A DNA stretch of 64,000 bases from a virus, in IMG/VR virus record IMGVR_UViG_3300023180_005138, positions 1-64,000 of that record. The stretch is one strand, 5' to 3'. This document shows positions 6,362-32,166 of the stretch, piece after piece. Below the pieces are notes generated by a model. That model was not told the DNA's origin. It saw nothing but the letters and a program-made list of their open reading frames with translations, and made no database searches. Each line of letters opens with the position of its first letter. Position 1 is the stretch's first letter. A program made the position numbers and the translations under genes.

Positions 6362-6373
6362 ATATATTTCCGC

Positions 6374-6820
6374 CTAAAAACCGAAGCCACTTGTCGGTAT
6401 TTCTACTGTTGTTACAGTTCCATTTGCATCTGTCACTGTCATTCTAATCATATCACCAATCGTCTCATATTGTATTGTATTTCCTAGAATAGTAATTGTT
6501 CCGCTCGACTGTGGGTTTTCCCCAAATAGCTTTTCACTTAACTGTTTACTAAGTTCTGCATAAACTCTACTCTCAAAATTTCTTAAAAACTTATTAATAT
6601 TAGTGTTTTCTGCTTCTCTTTCAGCTTCACGAGCCTCTGATTCTTTTTTTGCTTCTATATCCTTTTTTCTTTGAAAAGTTAAATTTTCTATGGTAAGAAC
6701 ATGAGAACTAAACCCCTGACCGTTAAAAGCCGGAGATTTAAAAGAATGTTTAAGTTCAGAAGCACTACTTGGGCTTACTAGGATGATCAAGGTCATCCAA
6801 ATTATCAATCTTGCCATCAT
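6374..6820 (-). CDS. csgF: CsgF-type curli assembly factor
   Basis: 148 residues with a signal peptide (about 1-20, ending SSA before SELKH). The mature start, HSFKSPAFNGQGF, matches the CsgF segment that inserts into the CsgG constriction. A charged helical linker (EAKKESEAREAEREAE) is inserted where bacterial CsgF has a shorter neck. It then continues with FLRNFESRVYAELSKQL and a C-terminal TITILGNTIQYETIG...MTVTDANGTVTTVEIP beta region, as in CsgF. CsgF sits outside on CsgG and couples secretion to nucleation. The gene lies 12 nt upstream of csgG and overlaps the preceding membrane-protein gene by 56 nt. The call rests on both end motifs and context. Confidence 0.85.
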   Translation of the reverse strand: MMARLIIWMTLIILVSPSSASELKHSFKSPAFNGQGFSSHVLTIENLTFQRKKDIEAKKESEAREAEREAENTNINKFLRNFESRVYAELSKQLSEKLFGENPQSSGTITILGNTIQYETIGDMIRMTVTDANGTVTTVEIPTSGFGF

Positions 6821-9793: not shown

Positions 9794-10912
9794 CTATCCT
9801 AATTGATACTCTCTTACAGGTATTCTCTCCATATCAAAATTATTTAAATTTAAATAATTAGACCTTCCTATCTCTTTAACAATAGGAATAACTATACTAT
9901 CATTCCACAAATTCATTAAATTAGGAACATATTTTCTCATATGTTTATACACTAAAGAATCTTCATTATCACAAACATCAGATCTAAGATCATTTCCTAA
10001 TCCTGTGGGTTTTACTGCTTGCCATCTTTGATCAAACGGTAGTCTACAAGCCGCTTCTAAATGTTGTCTAATTGATCTGCCATCTTTTAGTATACTAGTT
10101 TCTTTATCGTTTAATCCTCCCAACACTTTATTTGTTGGAAGATTATACTCTTCCCAATAATTTTTAACTAAATAACACTGTTTTACATGTAATTTAGGTA
10201 GATCAGGGCTAGTAAAAAACCACTCTCCTGCTAAAGCAGCTGCGATTCCCCAGCCGCTTAATTTATTATACCAAGTTCCGTTTCTAACTGTTAGTACGGG
10301 TTTGTTCTCTCCATAGATTTGTCCAACATTGCCCTTCGCGTATATCTGACTATGGTTATACTCAGCGAAATCATAAGCCCCAAATCTTCTTATCATACCT
10401 ATGGTTCCATTAAAAGCGGTACCTACCCAACGATCTTTATTACAAAAATCAGTTATTATTTTTTCGTCTACGTGATTAATTGTAACTTTAGTTCCGGGCA
10501 TAAATCTAATATAGGTTTTTACTTTTTGAATAGCTAATTCTATATCTAGCAGGGCGGGGTCATTATTATTAAAACAGATTCGATTTATAACAATTTCGTC
10601 TAAAAAAGTTCTACTTTTTAGAAAACTTTGTAATACAGTTTCTGAGTCCGATCCTCCACTATAATATAAAATTAAATAGTCGTACTTATCTCTAAGTTGT
10701 CTACATCTTTCATCTAATAAATCTAAATAATTTTCTGTAGGCTCGTGGGACCAATCTACAGAATCCCAAAAACCACCGTCGTGAATCACTTCTAAATTAC
10801 TAAGAGTTTCTTTACTTAGTGCAACTTGTAACTTAGTAGAGTATATTTTTTTAGTAGTTTTACTGTGAACTTTAACTCTATCATCGTTTTGGACATGAAA
10901 TAAGTTTCTCAT
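9794..10912 (-). CDS. PP-loop ATP pyrophosphatase-like protein (copy 1)
   Basis: 372 residues. The PP-loop signature SGGSDS is at residues 85-90 after a YLILYY strand, so it should bind ATP and adenylate a substrate. It is not QueC, TilS or asparagine synthetase by its remaining motifs. It is clearly paralogous to the product at 18676-19749: both share HDGG/HDGQ-W, LDERCRQLR/LINRCRQLR, FNGTIG/FNGSIG and WFFTS/WFYTS...VKNY. In both arms the gene is paired head-to-tail with a DegT-family aminotransferase (here sharing one base at 10912). A joint role in making an amidated or amino-modified metabolite or sugar is inferred. Confidence 0.75.
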   Translation of the reverse strand: MRNLFHVQNDDRVKVHSKTTKKIYSTKLQVALSKETLSNLEVIHDGGFWDSVDWSHEPTENYLDLLDERCRQLRDKYDYLILYYSGGSDSETVLQSFLKSRTFLDEIVINRICFNNNDPALLDIELAIQKVKTYIRFMPGTKVTINHVDEKIITDFCNKDRWVGTAFNGTIGMIRRFGAYDFAEYNHSQIYAKGNVGQIYGENKPVLTVRNGTWYNKLSGWGIAAALAGEWFFTSPDLPKLHVKQCYLVKNYWEEYNLPTNKVLGGLNDKETSILKDGRSIRQHLEAACRLPFDQRWQAVKPTGLGNDLRSDVCDNEDSLVYKHMRKYVPNLMNLWNDSIVIPIVKEIGRSNYLNLNNFDMERIPVREYQLG

Positions 10913-12042
10913 TATAAAGAATTAGAAACCTCTATCATAATATCCTTATTTTCATCTGTTAAATACTCATGAAGGGGAAGAATAACTAATTCTTTTGCTA
11001 GTCGTTGTGCATATGGATACTCAACAGAGTCATAGTCAGAAAAACAAGGCATGTCAGGAAAACACGGATAAACACTAACACCTATTCCAACTTTTTTAAA
11101 CTCTCCTGCCGCTTCTTTTGCACTCATTTTAGAAGGAAAGAATCCAAATCCTGTACAAATATTATTTTCGCCAGTTAATCTTTCTTGTAGAATTTCTTTC
11201 TCAAATAGCTTATTATTTGCTCTACGCTGCTCTCTAACATCATTTTCTATTAGTATATCAATATCCTCTGCTATAATACGAGCAGTAGTATCGTCCATAG
11301 AACTTTTAGATGCAGGAGCAACAAACCCGTTTCTATTTTTATTGAATCCTTGCTGAGTTACTTCTTTCATATCATCTATTAGACGCTTACTAGAAGTGGC
11401 AACTGCCCCTCCTGTACCAGTGCTTGCTGGGTGTTTAGCAATATCAAAACTATAACAAGAAATATCTGCGTATCCCGGTTTATTACCTCCATCATTCATG
11501 TAGAATGCATTAGCAGCATCTTCAACAATCCACACATTTTTTGGGGCTATATTAGAAATCATTTCTACGTCTTGTACCCTTCCTAATAAATGAACGGGCA
11601 TAACAACCTTTGCAGTTGGAAATTTATCTAGAGCCTCTGCTAGACTATTAGGGCACATCATGGCGTCAGGTCCGTTATCACAGAATATAATTTTTCTGTT
11701 TATCCATAAAATGTTTTCAGGAGTAGCAATAAATCCCCAAGCGGGAATAATAACTTGATCACCTGGTTCTGTAGTTACTGCAAGTGCCGCTTGTATAGCA
11801 TCACTACCACAGTCAGTAAAATGCCAATGGTTAATTCCACTATGAAGTGTACATTTATTTGCTAAAGCGGCTCTACTAGGAGTATAATAATCGCTACTAG
11901 GCCCCGCACTTAGCCAGTCTGAGATAGTGTCTAGTCCTAATTCGTAGGCTTTTACATATCTATCTTTATATCTCTCGATTCTCTGTTTATATGCAAAATA
12001 TGGTACGTTTTGATTCTGATATTTATCTGGTATATCAACCAT
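10912..12042 (-). CDS. DegT/DnrJ/EryC1-type PLP aminotransferase (copy 1)
   Basis: 376 residues, fold type I. The PLP Lys is K203 in SFDIAKHPASTGTGGA; the cofactor-contacting VEDAANAF is at 173-180, and FTDCGSDAIQ (76-85) fits the phosphate-binding loop. The family transfers amino groups to keto sugars of nucleotide-activated glycans. It is paralogous to the product of 19749-20855 (both have H/YW-FTDC-DA-Q and the YSFD-K signature). It pairs with a PP-loop gene and ends in EVSNSL. A dTDP-keto-sugar substrate is possible because FdtA and RmlB are encoded in the other arm. Confidence 0.85.
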   Translation of the reverse strand: MVDIPDKYQNQNVPYFAYKQRIERYKDRYVKAYELGLDTISDWLSAGPSSDYYTPSRAALANKCTLHSGINHWHFTDCGSDAIQAALAVTTEPGDQVIIPAWGFIATPENILWINRKIIFCDNGPDAMMCPNSLAEALDKFPTAKVVMPVHLLGRVQDVEMISNIAPKNVWIVEDAANAFYMNDGGNKPGYADISCYSFDIAKHPASTGTGGAVATSSKRLIDDMKEVTQQGFNKNRNGFVAPASKSSMDDTTARIIAEDIDILIENDVREQRRANNKLFEKEILQERLTGENNICTGFGFFPSKMSAKEAAGEFKKVGIGVSVYPCFPDMPCFSDYDSVEYPYAQRLAKELVILPLHEYLTDENKDIMIEVSNSL

Positions 12043-18394: not shown

Positions 18395-18676
18395 ATGGCA
18401 GAATTTAAGCTCTGGGGTGTTTATACGCCTCTTTTAGAACAATGGACTCGTGATATGGGTAATCGCATGGAAGCCTATGTAGATACTAATGTTCATGATA
18501 TTGACGCTGAGTATTTTGATGAAGATGATCCTAGAGTCGCGCTATATGGATGGAAAAATTTTCCTCTATTTGTTGCTGTTAAGCATGGTCAACCTTTTCA
18601 AAAGGTAATTGGTAAACGTAACTGGGAATTTTATGAAGACTGGGTTAAAGGATTGGACTGGAAACGTGAGGCTTAA
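18395..18676 (+). CDS. small protein of unknown function
   Basis: 93 residues from the ATG at 18395; the frame is open further upstream, but that part overlaps the previous gene. Rich in Trp and acidic residues (LWGVYTPLLEQWTRD, DIDAEYFDEDDPRVALYGW, WEFYEDWVKGLDWKRE). Its TAA shares a base with the ATG of the PP-loop gene. Not recognised. Confidence 0.5.
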   Translation: MAEFKLWGVYTPLLEQWTRDMGNRMEAYVDTNVHDIDAEYFDEDDPRVALYGWKNFPLFVAVKHGQPFQKVIGKRNWEFYEDWVKGLDWKREA

Positions 18677-19749
18677 TGGAGTTTGACAGAGACTTTATCT
18701 TTTCTCATCAAAAAGTTTATAATATACACACAAATAAAAGTTATAATAGTAAAATATCTCTCATCTTATCTGATGAAACCCCTCAAAACTTAAGACTTCT
18801 TTTACATGACGGCCAGTGGGATCAATATAACTGGGAAATTGAACCGTCAGAATCTTTTGATAACTTATTAATTAATAGATGCCGACAACTAAGGCAGATG
18901 TACCCATATCTTACACTATACTTTAGTGGGGGAGCAGATTCTGAGACAATGGTACAATCATTTATAAAAGCTGGTATTGATCCTGATGAGATTGTAATAA
19001 ATGTATTCGAAGTCGCTAATGAAAATCCTTTACCTGATGTAGAATTAGCAATAAAAAAGCTAAACACCTATAAAAACTATTTACAAAAAACAAAGATTAC
19101 AATAAACCGATTCGGAAGAGAACTTCTGTTAAAGCTACTAGAAGGTAATCTTTGGTTTGACTCATACTTTAACGGGTCTATTGGTAATATCAGAAGGTTA
19201 ACCCTTCCAATTTATCAAGAGCTAGGGTTTTACAAAGATTCTGTACACTACACGGGTCATATTTTTGCTGATATGAAACCACAAGTAGAAGTAAAAAATA
19301 ATAAGTTTTATGCAAAAATGGGTCAAGGACTTAGCATAGGTCAATATGCAGACTGGTTTTATACAAGTTTAGATGCACCAGAGTTACAAATAAAACAAGC
19401 ACATTTAGTAAAAAACTATTTTAAAATACACGTTCCTACTGCTACTGGGTATTTAGGAGAACGTTCTAAGTATAAAGAAGATGTAATCAAAGCCTGTAGA
19501 TATAATTTTGACAACAGGTTTCAACCAGACAAGTTTGATGGGCTAGGATCAGATTTGCTAATTAAAAAGAAAACTGAAGATAGTGTAGTATATAATCTTA
19601 TGAAAAGCAAAGATCATCAACTATTTGATACCTACACTAGTAAAACTAAAGAACTTTTATCAGGAATAAAAAGTAAATCTCTAATTAGACCTGATACTTA
19701 TGATTTAGTGCCTATTAGTTATCAACAGGAATTTTATTTAGGTGAATAA
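18676..19749 (+). CDS. PP-loop ATP pyrophosphatase-like protein (copy 2)
   Basis: 357 residues with SGGADS at 84-89 after a YLTLYF strand. Paralogue of the left-arm protein at 9794-10912: the same blocks occur in the same order, including INRCRQLR, VQSFIKAG, FNGSIGNIRR, WFYTSLDAPEL and QAHLVKNYF. The PP-loop activates a carbonyl, carboxyl or nucleobase by adenylation. The aminotransferase gene follows, sharing one base, then two radical SAM genes, suggesting a multistep biosynthesis. The substrate is unknown. Confidence 0.75.
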   Translation: MEFDRDFIFSHQKVYNIHTNKSYNSKISLILSDETPQNLRLLLHDGQWDQYNWEIEPSESFDNLLINRCRQLRQMYPYLTLYFSGGADSETMVQSFIKAGIDPDEIVINVFEVANENPLPDVELAIKKLNTYKNYLQKTKITINRFGRELLLKLLEGNLWFDSYFNGSIGNIRRLTLPIYQELGFYKDSVHYTGHIFADMKPQVEVKNNKFYAKMGQGLSIGQYADWFYTSLDAPELQIKQAHLVKNYFKIHVPTATGYLGERSKYKEDVIKACRYNFDNRFQPDKFDGLGSDLLIKKKTEDSVVYNLMKSKDHQLFDTYTSKTKELLSGIKSKSLIRPDTYDLVPISYQQEFYLGE

Positions 19750-20855
19750 TGAAAAAAATAGCATTTATCCCTCATAAACAAAGATTAGAAAGACATAAAG
19801 TAGACTATTTAAGAGCCATGAGCGATGCTATGGACTATCCATATCAATCAGAAGATGGCAGAGATTTATCTCCTATACAACAAGCTCTTCATGATAAATG
19901 CGCAGAGCTTTCAGGCATTCCATATTGGACTTTTACAGATTGTTGTACTGATGCACTTCAAATTTCAATACATTGCTTAACTGAGCCTGGAGATATTATT
20001 GTAGTTCCCTCTTACGGATGGCGTGCTTTCGCAAATGCAGTGAAATTTATGAATCGAACTCTTCATTTTGTAGATTGTGATGAAACTGGTAATATTTCTA
20101 TAGATTCTTTAGAAGAGTATTGTAAAGAAGCAATTTTAGCTCCTGCAGCAGTAATTGCAGTACATAATTTTGGTACCGTTGTAGATTGTAGAAATATTAG
20201 AACTATTCTTGATAATGAAGGATTTGTAAATACTTGTATAATTGAAGATGCAGCTCCAGCATTTTATATGGGAGAGCCTTATGCTTATACCCCTGGTAGC
20301 TCGTCTGAAGCGGTATGCTATTCCTTCGACTTCACAAAATATCCAGGAACGCTTGGTAGCGGAGGAGCAATTGCAACACGTTTTGAGGACGTTAAGGAAA
20401 GGGTTTATCTTTCTTCAGCACATGGCAGAGCAAAATCTGGACAAATTATTACCTTTGGTACTAAGTCATATATGGATAATACCTCTTGTGCCGTTCTTTT
20501 AAAAGAGATTCAGTTGTTTGAGCAGTTTGAGTATAGAAAGCGTAGAGACGCAATTGCTACTTGGTATAAAAACAATCTTCCCTATCCAAACGTACCCGGC
20601 GATAATTATGTCTGGGAGAGATATACGATGGCAGTCTTTCCAGACCAGGTAGAGTCTGTTATAAAATCACTTAATGATGTAGGTTGTTTAGCAAGAACAT
20701 TCTTTAAAGAACCTCTCCATCAGTATGATTGGCTAAATGACAATAAAAAATGGTGCCCTATGACAGAACAGTTTACCGCTTCTACTGTTATGCTTCCTTC
20801 TCATCACTATTTAAAAGATGAAGAATTAGAAAGAATAGCAGAAGCCTTATGTTAG
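19749..20855 (+). CDS. DegT/DnrJ/EryC1-type PLP aminotransferase (copy 2)
   Basis: 368 residues. PLP Lys is K197 in YSFDFTKYPGTLGSGGA; IEDAAPAFYMGE (165-176) and FTDCCTDALQ (62-71) make the cofactor site. Paralogue of the left-arm aminotransferase, with the same unusual K(Q)R-ER start. Family members make amino sugars from keto sugars. It overlaps the downstream radical SAM gene by 7 nt. Together with FdtA and RmlB 5 kb downstream it could complete a 3-amino-3,6-dideoxyhexose route; this is inference. Confidence 0.85.
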   Translation: MKKIAFIPHKQRLERHKVDYLRAMSDAMDYPYQSEDGRDLSPIQQALHDKCAELSGIPYWTFTDCCTDALQISIHCLTEPGDIIVVPSYGWRAFANAVKFMNRTLHFVDCDETGNISIDSLEEYCKEAILAPAAVIAVHNFGTVVDCRNIRTILDNEGFVNTCIIEDAAPAFYMGEPYAYTPGSSSEAVCYSFDFTKYPGTLGSGGAIATRFEDVKERVYLSSAHGRAKSGQIITFGTKSYMDNTSCAVLLKEIQLFEQFEYRKRRDAIATWYKNNLPYPNVPGDNYVWERYTMAVFPDQVESVIKSLNDVGCLARTFFKEPLHQYDWLNDNKKWCPMTEQFTASTVMLPSHHYLKDEELERIAEALC

Positions 20856-21676
20856 ATCTAAGAATACTAGATGTAGTTGTATTATTAAATTGTAATCTTA
20901 ATTGTAGAGGTTGCAATAATTTTTGTGATCACAATGTAGCTGGTATAAGAAGTCTAGAAAACCTAAAACAAGATTTTATTAACTGGAAAACTAAAATTAA
21001 TCCTTCTAGAGTACAAATTATGGGAGGAGAAGCTTTATTACATAAAAATATATACGAAGTTATATATGCAGCTAGAGAGCATTTTCCTAATACTGACTTA
21101 AGATTATTTACTAATGGTCTTTTGTTAAATAAACACAAAGAATTAGTAAAAGTATTACAAGATACTAATTGTATGTTAGTAATTAGTGTACACTCTAAAG
21201 AGCCTAAGTATCTTAATTTTCTTTCTGATAGTGTACATTCTATTTTTAAAGGTTCTTTTAAAAATTCTGAAACAAAATCTTTAGTTTCTTATGGAACTGT
21301 ATATGAAAAAGAAGGTGTTACAATAGAATTTAGAGACATGACGAATCATTGGTATCAAACTTATAAAAATGGAGTAACCCCTTACCAAGATAATGACCCC
21401 AAAAAGTCCTGGGAAGCCTGTTATTTTAAATATTGCACTCAACTTTATGATGGAAAACTATGGAAATGCTCTCAAATAGCATATTTAGAGCCTTTAATGT
21501 CCCGTATCAATAATACAGAGTCTTGGGAAAAGTATAGAAATATTTATAAAGCATTAGATTATGATGGGTCAGATAAAGATTTTTTAGATTTTAGAACTAA
21601 TTTAAATAGAGAAGAGTTTATTTGTAATATGTGTCCGGCTAACCCAGAAATGCTGAGGTCAAAAAGTGTCTGGTAA
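20849..21676 (+). CDS. radical SAM protein
   Basis: 275 residues. CNLNCRGC near the N-terminus (about 15-22) is the CxxxCxxC that binds the 4Fe-4S cluster, and MGGEALL is the GGE strand contacting SAM. Four more cysteines towards the C-terminus (EACYFKYC, LWKCS, FICNMC) could bind an auxiliary cluster as in SPASM/Twitch proteins. Substrate unknown. It follows the PP-loop/aminotransferase pair and overlaps the next radical SAM gene by 11 nt. Confidence 0.85.
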   Translation: MLDLRILDVVVLLNCNLNCRGCNNFCDHNVAGIRSLENLKQDFINWKTKINPSRVQIMGGEALLHKNIYEVIYAAREHFPNTDLRLFTNGLLLNKHKELVKVLQDTNCMLVISVHSKEPKYLNFLSDSVHSIFKGSFKNSETKSLVSYGTVYEKEGVTIEFRDMTNHWYQTYKNGVTPYQDNDPKKSWEACYFKYCTQLYDGKLWKCSQIAYLEPLMSRINNTESWEKYRNIYKALDYDGSDKDFLDFRTNLNREEFICNMCPANPEMLRSKSVW

Positions 21677-22631
21677 AACTATTATTGGTATTAAACAAGA
21701 TGGAACAGTAGAAGAATTTTATCCTCAAGAATTAAGAGCTTCTAAGCTAAATGCTTGGAAAGGTTGGAAATGTTCTGTAGGACAATATAATATTGCTATA
21801 GCAGAAAATGGAGATATGAAAGGCGGAGATTGTGGAATCGGAGGACATCTAGGAAATATATATAAAGAGTTTCGTATTCCTAAGGAATGGCACACTTGTA
21901 CTATAGATTATTGTTCATGTTTTTTTGATATTGGAGTTCCTAAAGTATCTCAAGACCCCAACTCTGATTATAAAGAGTTTAGATCAAAAGAAATAGATTT
22001 AAAATTTGAATGGTTTTTGTCGGCTAAGTGTAACTATGCTTGTGAATATTGTCCTGATACGATTCATAATAATTTACCTCATAAAAATACATCAAAACAA
22101 GTATTTACCGGATTAGATAACTTATTTAAAAAACTAGATGGTAGAACATTTACAATGAGTCTTTGGGGCGGAGAGCCTACTATGTTTCCAGATTATATAG
22201 AAATTTGTAAAAAAATAAATGATTATGGAGCTAGAGTATTTACAACAACTAACGGAAGCAGAAGTGAAAAATACTTAGCAGAATTAATTCATCATAGCTG
22301 TTTATCTATATCAGTACATCAAGACTCTTATGATCAAGATAGAATGATAAATAATATAAAAGCTATAATAAGCGAAATAGATAAAAATAAGTTAGAAAAC
22401 TGGATAATGGTTAGGTGTATGGTTAAGCCAGGAAGTCTTTCTCACTGGAAAATTTTTATAGAAAGACTACAAAACGAAATACCCAACTTTACAAATAAAG
22501 CTAAATTAACATTAAACACCTTAGTAGGAGTATTACCTGATAGAAGTGATTGGACGGAAGATTTAATGGTAGGATATACAGAAAAAGAACTAAGTATATT
22601 AAAAAAATATGGTAGGTTGACAAATGTCTAA
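21666..22631 (+). CDS. radical SAM protein with N-terminal cysteine-rich domain
   Basis: 321 residues from a GTG. The first ~115 residues hold a cysteine-rich region (WKCSVG, GGDCGIGG, HTCTIDYCSCFFDIG) that could bind an auxiliary iron-sulphur cluster. The radical SAM core begins CNYACEYC, with LWGGEPTMFPD supplying GGEP. An auxiliary domain placed before the core is uncommon and recurs in the product of 47928-49013. Translationally coupled to neighbours on both sides (11- and 8-nt overlaps). Confidence 0.82.
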   Translation: MSGKTIIGIKQDGTVEEFYPQELRASKLNAWKGWKCSVGQYNIAIAENGDMKGGDCGIGGHLGNIYKEFRIPKEWHTCTIDYCSCFFDIGVPKVSQDPNSDYKEFRSKEIDLKFEWFLSAKCNYACEYCPDTIHNNLPHKNTSKQVFTGLDNLFKKLDGRTFTMSLWGGEPTMFPDYIEICKKINDYGARVFTTTNGSRSEKYLAELIHHSCLSISVHQDSYDQDRMINNIKAIISEIDKNKLENWIMVRCMVKPGSLSHWKIFIERLQNEIPNFTNKAKLTLNTLVGVLPDRSDWTEDLMVGYTEKELSILKKYGRLTNV

Positions 22632-23586
22632 TATATTAATTACTGGAGGACAAGGATTCATAGGGGCGGCAATTGCTGAAGTTCTTAAAAAAGAACATAC
22701 AGTAATTATTATGGATAAATGGTCAGAAAAGTATCCTGGGTACTCTGCTATTCATAGAGGTAAAGACGGACTAAAACCAGCTTCTATATTAGAAATGAAG
22801 CATAGAAAACAAGCAGCGGAATACAGAAATAATCAAATAAAAAATATATCTATTATAAAGTCTTGGACTTTTAATGAACATTTAGAAGATAAAATATCTC
22901 CTTTTTGGCCAGATTTAATTATAAATTGTGGTAGTTTGTCTGAGGCTATTTTATCTCAATATTTTAAGGAATTTACAGAAGACTCTATAGTAAGAGGCAT
23001 AGTTCAACTTAAATATATGTTTGATTGTCCTATACTTCATTTTTCTAGTTCCATGTCTTATGGATCTTGGACAGGGCCAATTAAAGAAGATGCTATGCAA
23101 AATCCAGTAGATTGGTACGGTAAATGTAAACAATTAAGTGAAATTTATATGGAAAGAGATAAAGATATAATAGTGCGTCCTATGCATGTTTATGGCTTCG
23201 GAGACGGTAAATTTCCAATGCCCATGAACATAGAAAGACAATATCAAAATGGCCGTCCTGTAACAGTAGAAGAGGCAGACTGCATCTATATTAAGGACCT
23301 TGTTGTAGTAATTAAAAAAATGATTGATAAATGGGTTCCAGGAGTGTATAATCTAAGTTCTGGATATCTTCGTTCTAAGGAAGTAATTAGAGAAGAATCT
23401 AAAAATATTCTTGGATATGAAATAGAAACAATTAATAAATCTGGTCCTACTGGTAAAGATAGAGGAACACTAGATTCTTCGAAACTAATGGAAGTTTATA
23501 ACTGGAACTCACAATATAAAAATTACAAAGAGACAATCATAGATTACTTTAATCAGTATAGGATAAATAATGAGAATAATAGTTAG
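22624..23586 (+). CDS. NAD-dependent epimerase/dehydratase (extended SDR)
   Basis: 320 residues. Rossmann motif ITGGQGFIGAAI at the start, an SSSMSYGS strand (catalytic Ser), and the YGKCK catalytic Tyr/Lys. A VRPMHVYGFGDG segment follows, as in nucleotide-sugar epimerases. Probably converts a nucleotide-activated sugar; exact activity not assignable. Overlaps the upstream radical SAM gene by 8 nt and the downstream bS21 gene by 17 nt. Confidence 0.85.
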   Translation: MSNILITGGQGFIGAAIAEVLKKEHTVIIMDKWSEKYPGYSAIHRGKDGLKPASILEMKHRKQAAEYRNNQIKNISIIKSWTFNEHLEDKISPFWPDLIINCGSLSEAILSQYFKEFTEDSIVRGIVQLKYMFDCPILHFSSSMSYGSWTGPIKEDAMQNPVDWYGKCKQLSEIYMERDKDIIVRPMHVYGFGDGKFPMPMNIERQYQNGRPVTVEEADCIYIKDLVVVIKKMIDKWVPGVYNLSSGYLRSKEVIREESKNILGYEIETINKSGPTGKDRGTLDSSKLMEVYNWNSQYKNYKETIIDYFNQYRINNENNS

Positions 23587-23899
23587 AAATAATGATCCTT
23601 TAAAGGCTTACAAGTTACTTAATAGAAAACTCCATGAAGCTAATATCTTTATAGAGTTAAAAGAAAGACAACACTATAAGTCTAAAGGAGAAAAAAGAAG
23701 AGAAAAGCGAAAAAGAGCTGTTGCTAGACAAAGAAAAGAGCATGCTCAAAAAGAAGCTATTCTATTAAAATTAGAAAACCAAATAACACGAGGAAATAAT
23801 GGTAGAAGAAACAACACAGGAAAACCAAATTCAAATAGAATGGGTTCCACTAACCGTAGCAGGAATCCTCAAAGTAAAGCTCCCAGAACCAACAGTTAA
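23570..23899 (+). CDS. rpsU: ribosomal protein bS21 homologue
   Basis: 109 residues. The first ~65 match bS21: IIVRNNDPLKAYKLLNRKLHEANIF, ELKERQHYKSKGEKRREKRKRAVARQRKE, i.e. the beta strand, helix and strongly basic tail helix. Bacterial bS21 is about 70 residues; here a ~40-residue Asn/Arg/Ser-rich tail is added, and its last 33 codons lie in a 101-nt overlap with the next gene. bS21 sits on the 30S subunit near the anti-Shine-Dalgarno and helps initiation. Phage copies are known and could bias ribosomes towards phage mRNA. Confidence 0.85.
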   Translation: MRIIVRNNDPLKAYKLLNRKLHEANIFIELKERQHYKSKGEKRREKRKRAVARQRKEHAQKEAILLKLENQITRGNNGRRNNTGKPNSNRMGSTNRSRNPQSKAPRTNS

Positions 23900-24832: not shown

Positions 24833-25066
24833 GTGTCGCAAAAATCATATAAAATAACTATAATGCTAAAGAGAGGAATACTCGATAACGCAGGAAAAGC
24901 GACAACTAAAGCTTTAAATAATTTAGGGTTTAAAACTGTAGAAGATGTTAGAATTGGAAGATGCATCTATCTTACTACAGACAAAGATATTGAACCCATA
25001 GCTCAGTCTCTTTATAATAGTGTTATGGAAGAGTATGAAGTTAAGTGTCTTGATGACGTAGACTGA
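24833..25066 (+). CDS. purS: PurS subunit of FGAM synthase
   Basis: 77 residues from GTG at 24833, chosen because AAGGGG lies six bases upstream. The pattern YKITIMLKRGILDNAGKATTKALNNLGF, VEDVRIGRCIYL and NSVMEEYEVK matches PurS (about 80 residues). With PurL and PurQ of the host it makes the enzyme that converts FGAR to FGAM in purine synthesis. Phage-encoded purS is known from cyanophages. Its stop codon abuts the acceptor piece of the tmRNA. Confidence 0.9.
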   Translation: MSQKSYKITIMLKRGILDNAGKATTKALNNLGFKTVEDVRIGRCIYLTTDKDIEPIAQSLYNSVMEEYEVKCLDDVD

Positions 25067-25451
25067 AAACTGAACTGGACCGGGGGGCAGTACCCCGCGC
25101 CTCCACCATAAACATATGAAGGAAAAACAATGGATTGGTTTACAGCAGATTTAATACATGCAATGAACGAGACATCGTGGGTCGATGGCATTGGAACCAT
25201 TGTTGTTCTACTTGGTGCTTACTTTGTATACAAGTGGATTAACAATAAATTCAAATAATCGTGTGTTTATGATGGGGGCGAAATAGGATCGACAGGCAGA
25301 TAATAGGAAAGCCGAGAGACAGGTGCGCAAGCGACCTTAACCGCAAGAAAATCAATAAATGCAAACGATAATTTCGTAGCATCTGAGAATTATGCACTAG
25401 CTGCATAATCTTTCTGGGGTTCGGTAGGTTCCTAGCAACAGAATACCTACC
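25062..25451 (+). ncRNA. ssrA: circularly permuted two-piece tmRNA precursor
   Basis: The acceptor piece (about 25062-25108) ends ...GCGCCTCCACCA. The coding piece begins GGGGGCG at 25274. These pair as a 7-bp acceptor stem with G-U at the third pair, the alanine identity element, and discriminator A. The tag frame at 25361-25408 encodes ANDNFVASENYALAA then TAA, a normal ssrA tag with a degradation-signal end. The coding piece closes in a GGTAGGT/ACCTACC hairpin (25423-25451) containing CCTAGCAACAGAA, as I recall from alphaproteobacterial forms. Acceptor-before-coding order with a 165-nt intervening segment is the permuted, two-piece architecture. It would rescue stalled ribosomes and tag proteins during infection. 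Confidence 0.93.
25130..25258 (+). CDS. 42-residue membrane peptide encoded inside the tmRNA intervening segment
   Basis: An ATG at 25130 with GAAGGA about eight bases upstream opens a 42-codon frame ending at 25258, 15 nt before the coding piece. The peptide has a polar N-terminus (MDWFTADLIHAMNETSW), one membrane helix (about 19-36, DGIGTIVVLLGAYFVYKW) and a basic tail (INNKFK), so N-out or N-in single-pass topology. The whole frame lies between the two mature tmRNA pieces. Intervening segments are normally short and non-coding, so the arrangement is odd. Confidence 0.6.
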   Translation: MDWFTADLIHAMNETSWVDGIGTIVVLLGAYFVYKWINNKFK

Positions 25452-25465
25452 ATTTTGAGGGACAA

Positions 25466-25861
25466 ATGTTATACGAAATCTTAAAATTTCCTACTGTTTC
25501 TGATGACAGAGGCAATCTAACCTATATTAATAATCTTGAACAAATTCCTTTTGAAATTAAAAGAATGTTTACTGTTGATAGCGTCCCTGCCGGAGCTGTC
25601 AGAGGCGGTCATGCACATCATCAGCTTCAAGAAGTCTTAATTCCAATTTATGGAAGATTTATCGCTTATTTATCAGACGGAAAAACATCAGAAGAAGTAG
25701 AGATGATTAATCCTAGAACTGGTTTATTATTATATCCTCATATTTGGAGAGAAATAAAAGGGTATACAAAAGGAGCAATTTGTTTATCTCTTTGCTCTAT
25801 GACTTTTGATGAGTCTGACTATATTCACACATGGGAAGAATTTAAAAAAATATATGTCTAA
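25466..25861 (+). CDS. fdtA: FdtA-type dTDP-keto-hexulose 3,4-ketoisomerase (cupin)
   Basis: 131 residues. RGNLTYINNLEQIPFEIKRMFTV, then VRGGHAHHQLQEVLIPIYG and LYPHIWREIKGYTKGAICLSLCS match the FdtA/WxcM cupin family, with the HAHH active-site cluster. It isomerises dTDP-4-keto-6-deoxyglucose (the RmlB product) to a 3-keto sugar for transamination by a DegT enzyme. RmlB is encoded next (8-nt overlap) and DegT enzymes in both arms, so the core route is present. Confidence 0.88.
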   Translation: MLYEILKFPTVSDDRGNLTYINNLEQIPFEIKRMFTVDSVPAGAVRGGHAHHQLQEVLIPIYGRFIAYLSDGKTSEEVEMINPRTGLLLYPHIWREIKGYTKGAICLSLCSMTFDESDYIHTWEEFKKIYV

Positions 25862-26792
25862 AACTGTATTAGTAACTGGTGGATTAGGATTTATTGGTAA
25901 ACATTTTGTAAGTGAGTTGTTACATAAGGGCCATAACGTGATCAATATTGATTGTTACACTTATGCAGCGGATAGACACACTTCAAAAATATTTAAACAA
26001 AAGCCAAACTATATAGAATCAAGAGAATATATTCACAATTTAGGATATTTACCTATATGTGATTATGTAGTACATTTTGCAGCTGAGTCCCACGTAGATA
26101 ATTCTATTGCTGATAGCTCTAAATTTATTCATAGTAATATTACAGGTACACACCATATATTAGAATTATTAAGACGTATGCCAGAGAGTCATCGTCCTCA
26201 TTTAATTCATATTAGCACAGACGAAGTATATGGAGATTCTCAACCTAATCAACAGTTTCTAGAGACTGATATATTAAATCCTTCAAGTCCATATTCTGCC
26301 TCAAAAGCAGCAGCGGAACATTTAGTTACTTCTTATGCTAGAACATATGATATATCTTATAATATAGTTAGAATGACAAATTGTTTTGGTAATGACCAAT
26401 ACCCAGAAAAACTTATTCCTACTATTTGTATGAATCTTAAAAAAGATAAGCCTATACCAATTCACGGAACTGGAAATTATGTAAGAACTTGGTTATGGGT
26501 ACAAGACGCGGTAAAAGCTATAGAAACTATTATACAAACTGGCAATAAAAATGAAATTTATAACGTTTCAGGAGACTGGAGATTTTCTGTGCTAGAAATT
26601 GTTGACTTTTTCTGTAAAGTAGCAGGAAAAGGAGAGACAAAACTAGTAAAAAATAGACCTGGGCAAGATTTAGACTATCATATTAATGATGATAAAATTA
26701 GAAAACTTGGCTGGAATCCTACAAAAGGACCTGCTGAACTAGCAGAGGTCATCTATAGAAACTTTAATCCTAATAGATTTATAACAAAATAA
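25854..26792 (+). CDS. rmlB: dTDP-glucose 4,6-dehydratase-like enzyme
   Basis: 312 residues from the ATG at 25854 (ATGTCTAA junction with fdtA). VTGGLGFIGKHF binds NAD; AAESHVDNSI and ISTDEVYGD are diagnostic for RmlB, with YSASKAA giving the catalytic Tyr/Lys. MTNCFGNDQYPEKLIP is also conserved. It makes dTDP-4-keto-6-deoxyglucose. No RmlA thymidylyltransferase is seen, so dTDP-glucose would come from the host or another part of the genome. Slightly shorter than bacterial RmlB (about 350). Confidence 0.9.
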   Translation: MSKTVLVTGGLGFIGKHFVSELLHKGHNVINIDCYTYAADRHTSKIFKQKPNYIESREYIHNLGYLPICDYVVHFAAESHVDNSIADSSKFIHSNITGTHHILELLRRMPESHRPHLIHISTDEVYGDSQPNQQFLETDILNPSSPYSASKAAAEHLVTSYARTYDISYNIVRMTNCFGNDQYPEKLIPTICMNLKKDKPIPIHGTGNYVRTWLWVQDAVKAIETIIQTGNKNEIYNVSGDWRFSVLEIVDFFCKVAGKGETKLVKNRPGQDLDYHINDDKIRKLGWNPTKGPAELAEVIYRNFNPNRFITK

Positions 26793-27481
26793 TGAATATT
26801 TATATAAGAGTTAGCGAAAACCAAAAAACAATTAGTGGCGTTGATAGATGGAATTCTTATGATAAAAGAATGACACTTAAAAAGTGTTGGATGTCTCTTA
26901 TGATTAATGTTACTAGTGAAGATTTTATTACTATATATCACCACGATGTAAGAGATGAGACTCTTAACTGGTTATCTAATAAATGTTCAACTCTCCACAA
27001 TTTTGTAAAGATAAACTCATTAGAAGAAAGTTTTTTAGTGCCTTTAGAAGATATGAAGTCTAATCTAAAAGCAGAAAAGGATAAAAACAAATTATACGCG
27101 TTATTAGAGGATGATTATCTTTGGAATGGAAATGCGTTAAGAACTATAAAAGACGCTACTAAACATTGGAAAGGTTTTATAGCCCCTAATGATACTCCTG
27201 CTAATTATAAAGATTTTACACAAGCGCATATATTATTAGGACAAGATAGACATTGGAGAACTACTAACTATATTTCTTGGAATTTAATAGGCACACAAGA
27301 AATATTTTCTACTTTTATAGACGATATTATAGCTTCTGGTACTGATATAAAAGAATTAAATAATATTTTAAATAAAACTAAATGTATAAATCCATTACCA
27401 GGAGTCGCCACTCATTGTAAACAAGAAGATATGACTCCTTTAGTAAACTGGGATTATGTATGGGACGGAATTAAATTATGA
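26792..27481 (+). CDS. glycosyltransferase-like protein of unknown specificity
   Basis: 229 residues. YALLEDDYLWNGNAL carries an acidic D-D motif like the metal site of GT-A enzymes. FIAPNDTPANY and PGVATHCKQEDMTPLVNW at the C-terminus resemble small GT-like proteins. Position between RmlB and an epimerase supports a sugar role. Identity at family level is weak. Confidence 0.5.
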   Translation: MNIYIRVSENQKTISGVDRWNSYDKRMTLKKCWMSLMINVTSEDFITIYHHDVRDETLNWLSNKCSTLHNFVKINSLEESFLVPLEDMKSNLKAEKDKNKLYALLEDDYLWNGNALRTIKDATKHWKGFIAPNDTPANYKDFTQAHILLGQDRHWRTTNYISWNLIGTQEIFSTFIDDIIASGTDIKELNNILNKTKCINPLPGVATHCKQEDMTPLVNWDYVWDGIKL

Positions 27482-28497
27482 AAAAAGTATATATTACAGG
27501 AGCTGCCGGTCTTATAGGATCTGAGCTTGTTAGATTGTTTGTTTCTGTAGGAGCAAAAGTCAAATGTTGTGACACATTAATTGGAGGTCTTGACTCTAAT
27601 TTAACTAGATTTAAGAACAATATTGATTATAAACCAATTGATATTTTAGATTTTAAGTCTTTAAAAGAGCATATGGAAGGGGTAGACGCAGTATTTCATT
27701 GTGCTGCTTTACCATATGAAGGGTTATCAGTATTTTCCCCTAAAGTTGTAGCAGAAAATATTGTAGGAGGTACTGTTAGTGTAGCTTCTGCTTGTATTGC
27801 TAACAATGTTAAGAAACTATTTAACTTTTCTTCAATGGCTAGATATGGAGCACAAGAACCTCCTTTTACAGAAGATATGCCTAGAAAACCAGAAGACCCT
27901 TATGGACTAGCTAAAGCACAAGCAGAAGAACACCTAGAGCTACTAAGTAAATTACATGGATTAAGTTTTACTACTATTGTACCACACAACGTTATTGGAG
28001 TAGGACAAAGATATATGGACCCTTATAGAAATGTAGTAGCGATCATGATTAATCGAGTATTACAGAAAAAAACAATTATTATATACGGAGACGGACAACA
28101 AAAAAGAAGTTTTTCTAACATTCAAGATTGTGGAAGAGCTATTTGGCATTTGTATGAGTCCGAAAAAGATTTAACAGGACAAGTGTTTAATATAGGCCCT
28201 GATGACAATGAAACGACTATTAAAGATCTAGCACATCGAATCGGGCATCATTGTGGTATTTATCCAAGAATTGATTACTACCCAGATAGACCAGCAGAAG
28301 TTAAAAATGCTTGGTGTTCTTCAGAGAAAATTAAAACGCAATTTAATTATAATACTACTAAAAGTCTAGATGATACAATAGTAGAAATGATAAACTGGAT
28401 TTCAGAAAGAGGACCTGAGCCTTTTGTTTATGACTCTCTTTCCTTAGAATTTATTACAGAAAATACTCCCGCAACTTGGGTAGAAAGGTTAATTTAA
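27478..28497 (+). CDS. NAD-dependent nucleotide-sugar epimerase/dehydratase
   Basis: 339 residues. ITGAAGLIGSELV binds NAD; HCAALPYEG and FNFSSMARYG then YGLAKAQAE give Ser, Tyr and Lys. VFNIGPDDNETTIKDLA near the C-terminus is typical of GalE/UDP-glucuronate-type enzymes. A 40-residue tail extends beyond the usual end. Shares 4 nt with the previous gene; part of the sugar block. Confidence 0.87.
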   Translation: MKKVYITGAAGLIGSELVRLFVSVGAKVKCCDTLIGGLDSNLTRFKNNIDYKPIDILDFKSLKEHMEGVDAVFHCAALPYEGLSVFSPKVVAENIVGGTVSVASACIANNVKKLFNFSSMARYGAQEPPFTEDMPRKPEDPYGLAKAQAEEHLELLSKLHGLSFTTIVPHNVIGVGQRYMDPYRNVVAIMINRVLQKKTIIIYGDGQQKRSFSNIQDCGRAIWHLYESEKDLTGQVFNIGPDDNETTIKDLAHRIGHHCGIYPRIDYYPDRPAEVKNAWCSSEKIKTQFNYNTTKSLDDTIVEMINWISERGPEPFVYDSLSLEFITENTPATWVERLI

Positions 28498-29238
28498 ATG
28501 GCTACTATTATTTGTCCATATGTGTTTCCAGAAGAGATAGCAGGATTAAAAGACTCACTTTGGGAGTTAGATACTATATTTGAACAAGATACGTCAAAAA
28601 TAGGATCAGATATGATGTATCAAAAACTTTGGAAACAAACCGATGATGACATTATCATTCTTCATGCGGATATGCACCCTTTACCAGAAGATACAACCCA
28701 TATGTGGTATAAAGAATTAGTTAATTACGCAGAAAAATATCCAGAAGCAGGTATGTTAGGATGTAAGCTTCTTTATCCTGCTAAGAATGAAGAAGGTAAG
28801 TTTATTATTCAACACGCAGGAGGAAAAATTAATGAAGACGGAACTGCCGATCATTTTGGAAGCGGTTTTAGGATGGAAGATAAGAAATTCTGGAAAGCTC
28901 CAGAAGTTGATACTGGACAGTATGATAAAATTAGAGAAGTCGCTTGGTGCACCTTTGGAGGGTTATATATTAGAAGAAAAGTACTTGATGAAATAGGAGA
29001 TTTTGATGTGTCTTTTGAGTATACATACGAGAGAGATGTAGATTATTGTATGGAAACTCGTAAAGCTGGTTGGAAAATATATATGACTCCTTCAACTTTG
29101 ATTCACTGGGAAAGTAAAGATAATAAAAGAGTTATGACACAAAATCTTTATGACGCTCAAGCAAGAAATAAAGAAAGACTTAAAGAAAAATGGCAAGGAA
29201 CCGAATGGTTTAAAACCGTAGATACAGAGGTAGCTTAA
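28498..29238 (+). CDS. GT2-family glycosyltransferase
   Basis: 246 residues, a GT-A fold. DDDIIILHADMHPLPED provides the metal-binding acidic motif, GGLYIRRKVLDEIGDFDVSF the acceptor-site motif, and ERDVDYCMETRKAGWKIYMTPSTLIHW the catalytic-base region. Similar to rhamnosyltransferase-type enzymes. The start ATG follows the epimerase stop directly. Probably adds the sugar made by the neighbouring enzymes; acceptor unknown (host glycan, virion protein or DNA). Confidence 0.82.
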   Translation: MATIICPYVFPEEIAGLKDSLWELDTIFEQDTSKIGSDMMYQKLWKQTDDDIIILHADMHPLPEDTTHMWYKELVNYAEKYPEAGMLGCKLLYPAKNEEGKFIIQHAGGKINEDGTADHFGSGFRMEDKKFWKAPEVDTGQYDKIREVAWCTFGGLYIRRKVLDEIGDFDVSFEYTYERDVDYCMETRKAGWKIYMTPSTLIHWESKDNKRVMTQNLYDAQARNKERLKEKWQGTEWFKTVDTEVA

Positions 29239-29516
29239 TGGATGAGGAAAATATTTTTGTGATATCAAAAGAACATGCGATTGAAATTTTATCAGAAAAA
29301 ACTAAAAGCTACTTTTCAGGAGATAAAGTAAAGAACAATGTAATATATCTTACAGCATGGTTATTAATTGTAGCAGTTATAGGAATTACATGTTTAAGTA
29401 CTGCTATATTACTAATAATAACTGGTCCTTTCTTTTTACTAGAGTACATTATTAGAAAAATATTTAATAGAGGAGATAAAGTCAATGAAAACAATTACGC
29501 AATTGACGAAGAATAA
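29238..29516 (+). CDS. small membrane protein
   Basis: 92 residues with two adjacent hydrophobic segments (about 35-54 VIYLTAWLLIVAVIGITCLS and 55-73 TAILLIITGPFFLLEYI) and charged ends. It overlaps the next gene by 32 nt. No family recognised; lies in the sugar block, so could help at the membrane. Confidence 0.5.
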   Translation: MDEENIFVISKEHAIEILSEKTKSYFSGDKVKNNVIYLTAWLLIVAVIGITCLSTAILLIITGPFFLLEYIIRKIFNRGDKVNENNYAIDEE

Positions 29517-30189
29517 AATTATTGAAGCTTTTCATCAAGCCGAATTAGATAACTCAGGGCTTAGAGAGTTTGAAAGAGATTTATATGGAGCTAGTGGAAG
29601 AAAAACTAGACACGCAATTAATAATATTTGTGGAATAAAAGAAGGACTTACGTACTTAGAATTAGGAGTTTATAGGGGATCTACTTTAGTAGCTGCTAAT
29701 TATAATAATAAGTTGACTACATATGCTGTAGATGATTTTACTATGGATATTAAAGAACCAAAACAATACAAAGAGAATGGTTGGAGTAATGCTAGACAAG
29801 CTACTGTAGACCTATTAAATAGGTATAAATTTTCAAATGTCAATATCATTGAAGAAGATGCTTTTAAAGTAGATGTTAAAAAAATAGCAAAAAAAGTGGA
29901 TATTATACACTATGATTTAGATGAACATCACGCTAATGTAGAACAAATTTTAAGAAAATACTTATCAGTGTTTGATAAGCATACTGTGTTAATGTTCTCA
30001 AACTGGAATTCTAATGGAGTCAGAAAAGCATTTGCTCAGTTTACTAAAACTCCTGGGATTGAGATTGAGCCTCTTTTTGAAAAGCTTAGTAATAACGCAG
30101 GAGATAGTATGAATTGGTACAATGGTTTTGCTGTTTTCTTATTTACTCTAAACACAAAAGAAGTTGAAAAAGAGGTAAAAAATGATTAA
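29485..30189 (+). CDS. SAM-dependent methyltransferase-like protein
   Basis: 234 residues. LTYLELGVYRGSTLVAA fits class I motif I (the ExGxxxG form), followed by TYAVDDF, and HYDLDEHHANVEQIL in place of the family's metal-binding DxDH. Resembles the Methyltransf_24-like O-methyltransferases found in sugar clusters. Likely methylates a sugar or protein; not certain. Overlaps both neighbours. Confidence 0.65.
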   Translation: MKTITQLTKNKIIEAFHQAELDNSGLREFERDLYGASGRKTRHAINNICGIKEGLTYLELGVYRGSTLVAANYNNKLTTYAVDDFTMDIKEPKQYKENGWSNARQATVDLLNRYKFSNVNIIEEDAFKVDVKKIAKKVDIIHYDLDEHHANVEQILRKYLSVFDKHTVLMFSNWNSNGVRKAFAQFTKTPGIEIEPLFEKLSNNAGDSMNWYNGFAVFLFTLNTKEVEKEVKND

Positions 30190-31003
30190 AAAATCGGTAA
30201 TTTCTTTAATTAGTTATGATGCACATTTACTCCCTAATAGTATAAAATCTTACTATGATTACGTAGACGAGATTGTACTAGGATTAGATAAAGATAGATT
30301 TACTTGGAGTCACCAATCTTTTACATTTGACGAAAATAAACTTTGGGCAGAATTAAAAAAGATCGACACAAAAGGCAAAATTTCAGTAATTGAAGAGCAT
30401 TTTCATCCAAGTGGGCTTGCTATTGAAAATGATAACTATGAAAGAAATGTTTTAAAATCTCATTGCACTAATGACTGGATTATGTCTTTTGATGCAGACG
30501 AAGAATTGATTAATCCAAAAGAGTTCTTTTACTCTTGGTGTCCTTTGTTTGAGCCTTATTATAAAAAGTACGATTTAACTTTTACTTGGTTTTTGCCTTG
30601 GAAAGAGTTTGAAGAAGATATTCTTATGATTGCAGAGGAAGATACAAGTTTTATTAAATCAGAAAGACAAGGATTCGCTACATATAAAAATAATCAATTT
30701 ACCTATGCTAGATGGACTAATAATCAATTTAGAATAGAAACTCCTCTGTGTATCTTACATTGGAGTCTTTGCCGAAACGAAAAAGACTTAAATCAAAAAA
30801 TTAATAATATTGGTCACTCTGATAGAGTAAAAGAAGATCCTTTTTTTGATATTTGGAAACAGACTACTTTACAAAATTATGAACAATTAAGAAATTTTAA
30901 GACTTCTGGGCTAGGAGATCCAAAGCAGTGGGCTAGATTAACTAAAATTAAAAGAGCCGAATTAAATGATATATGTAAAATGGAAGCACAGAGGGTATAC
31001 TAA
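30182..31003 (+). CDS. glycosyltransferase-like protein (GT-A fold)
   Basis: 273 residues. It starts VISLISYDAHLLPNSIKSYYDYVDEIVLGLD, as in GT2-like enzymes. IMSFDADEELINP carries the DxD metal site, and LHWSLCRNEKDL the downstream His. Acceptor unknown. Ends in one base shared with the next glycosyltransferase, indicating coupled translation. Confidence 0.72.
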   Translation: MIKKSVISLISYDAHLLPNSIKSYYDYVDEIVLGLDKDRFTWSHQSFTFDENKLWAELKKIDTKGKISVIEEHFHPSGLAIENDNYERNVLKSHCTNDWIMSFDADEELINPKEFFYSWCPLFEPYYKKYDLTFTWFLPWKEFEEDILMIAEEDTSFIKSERQGFATYKNNQFTYARWTNNQFRIETPLCILHWSLCRNEKDLNQKINNIGHSDRVKEDPFFDIWKQTTLQNYEQLRNFKTSGLGDPKQWARLTKIKRAELNDICKMEAQRVY

Positions 31004-32166
31004 TGATAACAGTTGAAATATTAGGGAAATTTTTTGACAATCACTCACTAGCTATAATTAATAGAAAGCTAGCTGTTGGATTAAGTAAAAATAAAAACAT
31101 AAATACTATTATTACTCCGTTAGATTCTTATGATAGTTCCCACAAAGTAAATAAATCAGAAATTAAAGTTTTAAAGGGTATTTTACAAAAATCCGAAAAT
31201 GTAGAACCTGATATTCAAATTAGACACACCTATCCTCCTATTTGGAGATGGCCTGTTTCTGAAAAAACTAAAATTTTATTTATTCAACCTTGGGAATATT
31301 CAAAAGTACCATTTGAATGGCAATACAAATGGGAAAATTTTGCTGACGGAGTAATTACTCCTAGTATGTGGACAGGAGATAAATTTTTAGAAGGAGGGTT
31401 AGATCCAAATAGACTTTTTGTAGTTCCAAATGGTTATGACCCAACTATATTTAATACTAAACCGGAAGAGTCAAGGTTTTTTGACGCTAAAAAATTCACA
31501 TACTTATTTGTAGGTAATCATCAAGCTAGAAAAGGTCTAGATACCTTATTAAATGTTTGGAAAGAGTCTTTTGTTAGAGCTGATAACGTACAACTATTTA
31601 TTAAAGATACTCCTCAAATTTATGGACAGAACAATTTATTATCCCAAATTCTAAGTTTGCAATATCATGTAGACTGTGGTAAAATTATATATAATTCAGA
31701 CCTATTATCTGATCAAGATATGGCAAATATCTATAAAAATTCTAAAGTAGTAGTTCATCCATATAGAGGCGAAGGGTTTGGTATGCATATACAAGAATCT
31801 GTAGCGTGCGGTGCCTATCCTATTATTAGTGATCAAGGACCTACAGAAGAGTTTATTCCTAGAGAAATTGGCGCTAGAATCACAACGAACAGAAAACATG
31901 TTAATATTACAGACCCAGAGCTTTTTGCCCTAAAACCTGGGGATAGTGTTACTAATATGGGTGGACATGCTTGGATTCTTGATCCTGATGCAAATAATTT
32001 AAAGTTTCAAATGAAATTAATCTATCAGCATCACGAAAGAAAAAGAATTTTAGAAACTGTAAAGAACTATAATAACCCTAATACTTGGGACGCTATTATT
32101 GAAAATTACATTAATGTAATTACAGGAGTATATAATAATGAACAAAGACCAAGAAGATACACTTAG
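31003..32166 (+). CDS. GT4-like (GT-B fold) glycosyltransferase
   Basis: 387 residues. The C-terminal nucleotide-sugar domain includes FVVPNGYDPTIFN, YLFVGNHQARKGLDTLLN and the E-x7-E motif in GEGFGMHIQESVACGAYPII. The N-terminal domain binds the acceptor. Retaining enzyme by family. Its end overlaps the iron-sulphur carrier gene by 29 nt. Confidence 0.88.
   Translation: MITVEILGKFFDNHSLAIINRKLAVGLSKNKNINTIITPLDSYDSSHKVNKSEIKVLKGILQKSENVEPDIQIRHTYPPIWRWPVSEKTKILFIQPWEYSKVPFEWQYKWENFADGVITPSMWTGDKFLEGGLDPNRLFVVPNGYDPTIFNTKPEESRFFDAKKFTYLFVGNHQARKGLDTLLNVWKESFVRADNVQLFIKDTPQIYGQNNLLSQILSLQYHVDCGKIIYNSDLLSDQDMANIYKNSKVVVHPYRGEGFGMHIQESVACGAYPIISDQGPTEEFIPREIGARITTNRKHVNITDPELFALKPGDSVTNMGGHAWILDPDANNLKFQMKLIYQHHERKRILETVKNYNNPNTWDAIIENYINVITGVYNNEQRPRRYT

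Follow-up and report, generated by a model that had tools for sequence, protein, structure and literature searches.

A T5-like phage locus with a fixed gene frame and exchangeable radical SAM and PP-loop enzymes, probably serving amino-sugar decoration of a surface glycan

What might a phage make with a PP-loop ATPase, an aminotransferase, two radical S-adenosylmethionine (SAM) enzymes and an epimerase set in a single row? The question is raised by positions 18,395 to 23,586 of a 64,000-nucleotide stretch of viral DNA (the window; positions 1 to 64,000 of IMG/VR virus record IMGVR_UViG_3300023180_005138). The window is part of a virus contig of 117,378 bases, and the terminase and DNA polymerase encoded on it share ~42% identity with their counterparts in Erwinia phage KEY and like matches, which we take to be T5-like phages. 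A sequence-only reading had described the row as one translation unit for a small-molecule or sugar pathway. Comparison with related phages revealed a gene frame that is fixed and inner enzymes that are exchanged at gene ends, and we put at about 60% the probability that the locus is a hypervariable cassette for tailoring amino sugars, by which a surface glycan of the host or of the virion is diversified.

Five open reading frames were found where that reading had placed them, all on the + strand: PPa, a PP-loop ATP-pyrophosphatase (18676-19749); DegTa, a pyridoxal phosphate (PLP)-dependent sugar aminotransferase (19749-20855); the radical SAM proteins rS1 (20849-21676) and rS2 (21666-22631, with a GTG start); and Epi, an extended short-chain dehydrogenase/reductase (SDR) of epimerase type (22624-23586). 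Neighbouring stops and starts overlap by 1-11 bases. The frames encode 275-368 amino acids, against longest stop-free runs of 80-139 codons in twenty 64-kb Markov sequences, and are therefore far beyond chance at the composition of the window. The claim of a single unit thus held, and the unit was extended on both sides: its first gene, one upstream of PPa, encodes a 93-residue thioredoxin (Trx)-like protein (18395-18676, +), and its right end runs into a gene for ribosomal protein bS21 (23570-23899, +; PF01165, E 4.2e-10), which forms the right edge of the locus and occupies the same place in most relatives. Pfam matches bore out the proposed identities of four of the five proteins, with the PP-loop protein recognized by its SGGxDS motif only. 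Ratios of nonsynonymous to synonymous substitution of ~0.07-0.32 were obtained for all unit genes measured, and the cassette genes measured are, in all their versions, under purifying selection.

Related loci (cited here by L number) were gathered by scans with alignments of DegTa, Epi, rS1 and rS2 and compared gene by gene, on contigs that are themselves fragments. Deduplication on a 100-residue stretch of DegT gave 56 non-redundant DegTa loci, among which near-identical strains may count apart; contents were assigned with profiles built in this analysis, by which some short or frameshifted genes may have gone unnoticed. The Trx-like gene stands upstream of DegT in 50 of the 56, with the epimerase or bS21 usually next, and the loci without it there include one contig that starts inside DegT and one relocated cassette. 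The cassette of L042 has been relocated and adjoins tail genes. The identical five-gene order recurs in L066 (contig of L071) and L072 (contig of L068), at identities, in gene order, of 31-32, 60, 42-45, 39-41 and 51%, and this recurrence falls in another DegT clade. The gene-neighbourhood search that had been proposed as a check therefore found conservation, both of the full order (31-60% identity) and of the frame. Upstream neighbours are common to 31/34 and 30/34 of the loci with enough sequence, which places the cassette at a single site within a single group of phages. DNA polymerase was 63-94% identical in 6 of 20 relatives' contigs searched; terminase was not found in the relatives' contigs, a result made uninformative by their fragmentary state. 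The carrier phages form an uncultured group that is probably marine.

Within this frame the content varies, both in the stretch from the Trx-like gene to DegT and in that from DegT to Epi or bS21. PP-loop genes number none to three and radical SAM genes none to four; some inserted radical SAM genes are of the B12-binding type (PF04055, weak PF02310), and other insertions encode a 2-oxoglutarate (2OG)-Fe(II) oxygenase (PF03171), SGNH-like proteins (weak matches) or, in L049, further proteins bearing an SGGIDS motif. Eighteen different complete contents were counted among loci having the Trx-like gene and a visible end, and a minimum of 13 and 16 content changes is required when contents are mapped on a 54-protein DegT tree, a quick one with support by the Shimodaira-Hasegawa-like approximate likelihood ratio test (SH-aLRT). 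The points of exchange were located by blastn: homology ends at the DegTa stop (20836-20865), at 20865 for L048 and 20836 for L045, and resumes at the Epi start (22623-22634), at 22630 and 22623, respectively. L045 lacks precisely the interval between that stop and that start, and L055 has an extra (third) radical SAM gene inserted precisely at 22630. In L048, DegTa is 93% and Epi 95% identical, with the radical SAM proteins between them only 27-34% identical to rS1. A fixed frame, a chemistry exchanged at gene ends and selection on every version measured are the strongest results of the analysis, and the swapping of middle enzymes even among closely related phages suggests rapid change of the chemical decoration on some surface molecule.

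An earlier rule of fixed slots, with ATPases before DegT and radical SAM enzymes after it, was true in the first dozen loci and was abandoned when L058, L074, L077, L110-L112 and L130 broke it. Another exchange site was seen in the close relative L048, where an acyl-adenylate-ligase-like gene and an SGGVDS protein are inserted as a pair (2956-5458, -).

Contents that change so often might also reflect ordinary auxiliary sugar genes piled up by chance, with no joint product, in a plastic region of the kind that marine phages have for sugar genes (PMC7029224). Such an accumulation is very unlikely, given that the same five-gene order is found in two DegT clades, that only few enzyme classes are inserted, and that the frame, as counted above, is fixed, with overlapping translation and purifying selection.

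The two enzymes of the frame point to sugar chemistry. DegTa matched PF01041 at E 1.7e-41 (143.1 bits against a gathering score of 19.8), with the Schiff-base lysine in SFDFTK and the PLP aspartate in IIEDAAPAF, both invariant in 7 relatives. By profile, its nearest solved structures are WbpE (E ~1e-31) and QdtB (E ~1e-24), and a sugar nucleotide is therefore the likely substrate. DegTa shares with these aminotransferases the PLP lysine and the EDAA motif, and differs from them in a long conserved N-terminus, KKIAFIPHKxRxExHKVDYLRA with PYQSEDGRD. It fell below every NCBIfam equivalog cut-off (DesI, PseC, LegC and WecE tested), the best scores being 77 bits against 650 for DesI and 66 against 423.5 for PseC; a DesI/DesII-type pair, suggested by the DesI match, was dropped on that score. 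Relatives at the equivalent locus are 93-46% identical, and the best DegT match among 50,697 phage genomes is ~25% identical. Epi matched PF01370 at E 1.4e-13 (51.3 bits against 20.9) and shows the motifs GGxGFIG for nicotinamide adenine dinucleotide (NAD), SSSM and YGxCK, the catalytic YxxxK. Its relatives at the equivalent locus are 95-51% identical, and none was found in the 50,697 phage genome records at E 1e-8. A diverged second pair, PPb (9794-10912) and DegTb (10912-12042), lies on the - strand; PPb shares 39% identity with PPa and DegTb 31% with DegTa, and the pair is retained in L008 (460 and 630 bits).

The third constant member, the Trx-like protein, was modelled by AlphaFold (mean predicted local distance difference test score, pLDDT, 86.7) with a predicted thioredoxin fold (Z 12.2, root-mean-square deviation 2.5, 88 residues against thioredoxin), and its profile retrieves thioredoxins at E ~1e-3. 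The cis-proline position of thioredoxin is kept, and E39, P57 and K74 are conserved in the alignment, whereas the CxxC of thioredoxin is absent from all homologues (0/70). The protein is therefore not a dithiol reductant, and may be a partner or scaffold. A protein without redox cysteines that is DegT's most regular partner also invites the idea that the cassette modifies protein or peptide, with the Trx-like or another phage protein as scaffold or substrate and the PP-loop, aminotransferase and radical SAM enzymes altering it or a tethered molecule, in the style of ribosomally synthesized and post-translationally modified peptides or of carrier proteins. Radical SAM enzymes with extra cysteines, such as are present here, are common in peptide pathways, and NCBIfam searches gave weak likeness to maturases, but all curated peptide-maturase models scored far under cut-off. 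The Trx-like protein is the sole regular small partner in the loci. Its alignment has no variable core-like tail, and DegT and the epimerase are sugar-type enzymes; modification of a protein or peptide is, on this balance, quite unlikely.

Turning to the exchangeable enzymes, PPa (motif SGGADS) occupies a variable position and had no match in Pfam, PHROG, NCBIfam or PDB sequences beyond the SGGxDS motif. Single-sequence and full-length searches retrieved no relatives of the PP-loop family, and none was present among the 50,697 phage genome records; a search with a motif-only alignment found relatives on 32 viral contigs. With the patterns used here the family is scarce in cells, at 4 loci in 84,980 species genomes, in a single Pseudomonadota genome of 398, which was the seed, and in 4 of 129 genomes of the order of a Bacteriovoracales genome. 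It is thus an unnamed and nearly virus-only family, with R68, R73, S84, G85, G86, D88, S89, F96, D104, K201 and F228 invariant across 34 rows. A structural model (pLDDT 87.2) is closest in fold to asparagine synthetase B (1ct9; 283 residues, Z 10.8), followed by beta-lactam synthetase at Z 10.1. PPa shares with this family the SGGxDS motif and the full-length predicted fold, but not a sequence match; it has invariant residues of its own. From this fold PPa may adenylate its substrate and then form an amide, with sulfur transfer a possible alternative. The N-terminal nucleophile cysteine by which asparagine synthetase uses glutamine is absent from PPa, which begins MEFDRD, and free ammonia or an amine would therefore be used.

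Two other candidates for asparagine-synthetase-like proteins were given up when sequence searches yielded only the motif: the SGGIDS proteins of L049, now called motif-bearing, and a 501-residue protein of L060, now left without an assignment. Chromosomal PPa-family genes occur on two contigs of Bacteriovoracales metagenome-assembled genomes (L039, 5106-9067; L040, 7842-16145), with a glycosyltransferase-like gene and DegT, and in L039 an epimerase, within a few kb and partly on the opposite strand; members of the same glycosyltransferase-like family stand next to PP-loop genes in two phage loci, L014 and L020. A third PP-loop protein in the window (57164-57982, +; AMSGGIDSE) is weakly like MnmA and NAD synthetase; several viral loci (L010, L014, L020) have relatives of it next to genes of the PPa family. 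A NodU/TobZ-like carbamoyltransferase, so named by eye, is encoded a few genes upstream of a PPa-family gene in L006 (984-2411) and L007 (6131-7528).

rS1, with the motif CNLNCRGC and extra C-terminal cysteines, and rS2, with an N-terminal cysteine domain, also lie at variable positions; they matched PF04055 at E 3.2e-11 and 1.4e-11 (44.1 and 45.3 bits against a gathering score of 29.5). CxxxCxxC is kept in 57/57 radical SAM relatives, the N-terminal cysteines of rS2 are retained in its L042 relative, and rS2 relatives are 75-88% identical in L055 and L063-L065. The suggested subfamily assignment left both proteins far below the curated cut-off of every NCBIfam subfamily match listed (the best, viperin-type, at 37-59 bits against 180), but succeeded for a third radical SAM gene at 47928, which scored 217.2 bits against the 170 of NF033640 (twitch-domain). 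That gene had been suggested to belong to the pathway. It lies 25 kb from the unit beside an aspartate/ornithine carbamoyltransferase gene, and is therefore not part of the unit in this phage, although the cassette of L122 does contain an enzyme of its family, 35% identical. Two further radical SAM genes were noted in the tail region (L003 10654-11634 and L004 4422-5597, both -, equal to 70654-71634 and 84422-85597 of the record), the first of which recurs at 79% next to the cassette that was relocated in L042. The gene at 32138 encodes an A-type Fe-S carrier, which scored above cut-off with PF01521.

The case for a surface glycan draws in part on the genes downstream. These encode an FdtA-like isomerase, an RmlB-like dehydratase, a glycosyltransferase-like protein (26792, by eye) and a second epimerase (together 25466-28497, +; PF05523 E 3.7e-37, PF16363 E 1.1e-53 and PF01370 E 5.2e-43), followed at 28498-32166 (+) by glycosyltransferase-like genes that are 66-84% identical in L045, those at 28498 and 30182 being weakly GT2-like (PF13641 and PF13704, below cut-off) and that at 31003 GT4-like by eye. 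Among 21 loci, homologues of the 26792 gene lie downstream in 18 (within 8-12 kb), RmlB-like genes in 16 and the second epimerase in 15. Sugar-nucleotide and glycosyltransferase genes thus stand alongside the cassette, as in phage clusters that modify lipopolysaccharide (LPS), the glycosyltransferases by weak assignment. A surface-glycan amino-sugar cassette is favoured because DegTa is near WbpE and QdtB, sugar and glycosyltransferase-like genes lie downstream, and the L042 cassette lies beside tail genes. Of the pathway first proposed, the biosynthetic unit stands and sugar chemistry is its most likely kind.

Several observations weigh against this reading. FdtA is downstream in 3 of 21 loci only, and the obvious source of keto-sugar is therefore not general; the glycosyltransferases were assigned weakly or by eye; the phage has no recognized rmlA-like nucleotidyltransferase; the PPa fold also resembles, less closely (Z ~7.5), sulfur-transfer LarE and NAD synthetase; and one chromosomal PP-loop gene examined, from the Bacteriovoracales order, has no sugar genes within 7 kb. 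The idea that RmlB, FdtA and DegTa make dTDP-Fuc3N(Ac), raised because DegTa is nearest 3-aminotransferases and FdtA and RmlB lie downstream, was for the same scarcity of FdtA retained as no more than a possibility in the present genome.

A diffusible small molecule made during infection (an antibiotic, a signal or something metallophore-like) might instead be the product: amino-sugar chemistry with radical SAM tailoring is like that of aminoglycoside pathways in the literature, and a methyltransferase/nicotianamine-synthase-like gene (by eye) does follow one chromosomal PP-loop gene. The downstream block of glycosyltransferase-like and sugar-nucleotide genes is conserved, however, and no exporter or resistance gene was recognized beside the cassette, which leaves a diffusible product quite improbable. 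The glycosyltransferases might also place amino-sugar or other groups made by the cassette on the bases of the phage's own DNA. In other phages DNA is a substrate of glycosyltransferases and of certain carbamoyl- and PP-loop enzymes, and the carbamoyltransferase genes of L006 and L007 would suit such a role. Against this, no hydroxymethylase-type thymidylate synthase was recognized in the genome, where the thymidylate synthase at record position 66104 looks by eye to be ThyX, and variable chemistry would be unusual for modification of bases throughout a genome; DNA hypermodification is highly improbable.

For the surface-glycan cassette, we infer the following substrates, reactions, order of steps, product, target and benefit. 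DegTa would put an amino group on a keto-sugar nucleotide, within a fixed set comprising also the epimerase and the Trx-like protein as putative partner or scaffold. PP-loop ATPases may form an amide by way of an adenylated carboxylate, unreactive C-H positions may be altered by radical SAM enzymes, those of the B12 type included, and in other loci oxygenase or SGNH-like proteins could supply further chemistries. The acceptor onto which the downstream glycosyltransferases load the product would be a surface glycan, most likely the LPS-like glycan of the infected host, where it could block rival phages, or else a glycan of the virion; the benefit would lie in recognition avoided or blocked. Recombination at gene ends would exchange the inner enzymes, such that sibling phages make different decorations. 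A bolder scheme, which we consider unlikely, is combinatorial biosynthesis, in which the redox-dead Trx-fold protein carries the substrate or presents it to interchangeable enzymes (radical SAM, B12-type, amide-forming PP-loop and oxygenase) and recombination at gene ends generates diversity like antigenic variation.

Other features bear on the host and on the wider genome. A permuted transfer-messenger RNA (tmRNA) of alphaproteobacterial type (24986-25454, +; RF01849 117 bits, RF04321 116 bits; tag ANDNFVASENYALAA) is also present in L045, L055, L025, L092 and L080, and is thus lineage-wide; its type hints at an alphaproteobacterial host. Marine phages, Melnitz among them, are known to have two-piece tmRNA (PMC9004378). 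A curli-like locus (949-6820, -) encodes CsgG (PF03783, E 5e-48), CsgF (PF10614, E 5.7e-19), a protein with a FecR domain (3822-4892) and, at 3083-3883 and 4840-5544, two secreted CsgA/B-like proteins that are rich in repeats, the former with a weak curlin repeat; Melnitz is reportedly without other curli genes, whereas here candidate fibre subunits adjoin CsgGF. In a tail protein of 2058 residues (record 76355-82531, -) an early CFAPDTLISIESGFKPISDIEVGD stretch reads like a Hint/intein-type domain. At 39150-39911 (+) a cytidylyltransferase-like domain is fused to a cupin of mannose-6-phosphate-isomerase type, which occurs alone in the cassettes of L064 and L081.

What marine phages make with the sugar genes they are known to carry, and why those genes vary, is rarely clear. 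With a fixed frame and swap points at gene ends among the 56 loci, siblings distinguished only by their inner enzymes would be expected to differ in the decorations they make. Confirmation would mean that viruses diversify a glycan by combinatorial enzyme exchange, and would supply radical SAM and PP-loop enzymes that are as yet unstudied, and access to surface-glycan warfare in uncultured, possibly alphaproteobacterial, hosts. Among known systems, the radical SAM tailoring of aminoglycosides (NeoN and AprD4 in the literature) is alike in placing radical SAM enzymes beside DegT and SDR proteins, a likeness by gene classes and not by sequence assignment. The view that such a pathway was not known in phages is not supported in that form, since pelagimyophages have been reported with LPS or O-antigen type clusters in the host-recognition region, two close genomes differing by their radical SAM cassettes (PMC7029224). 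Those clusters resemble the present locus in phage-borne sugar-nucleotide enzymes and glycosyltransferases that vary among relatives and in radical SAM cassettes. The present locus differs from them (PMC7029224) in its fixed frame of Trx-like protein, DegT, epimerase and bS21 with exchangeable enzymes and defined exchange points, in a PP-loop family that has no curated name, and in its setting, a T5-like phage whose tail genes lie elsewhere (the cassette adjoins them in L042). Marine phage sugar cassettes were thus already known, and the architecture of a fixed frame with swappable enzymes is a new version of them.

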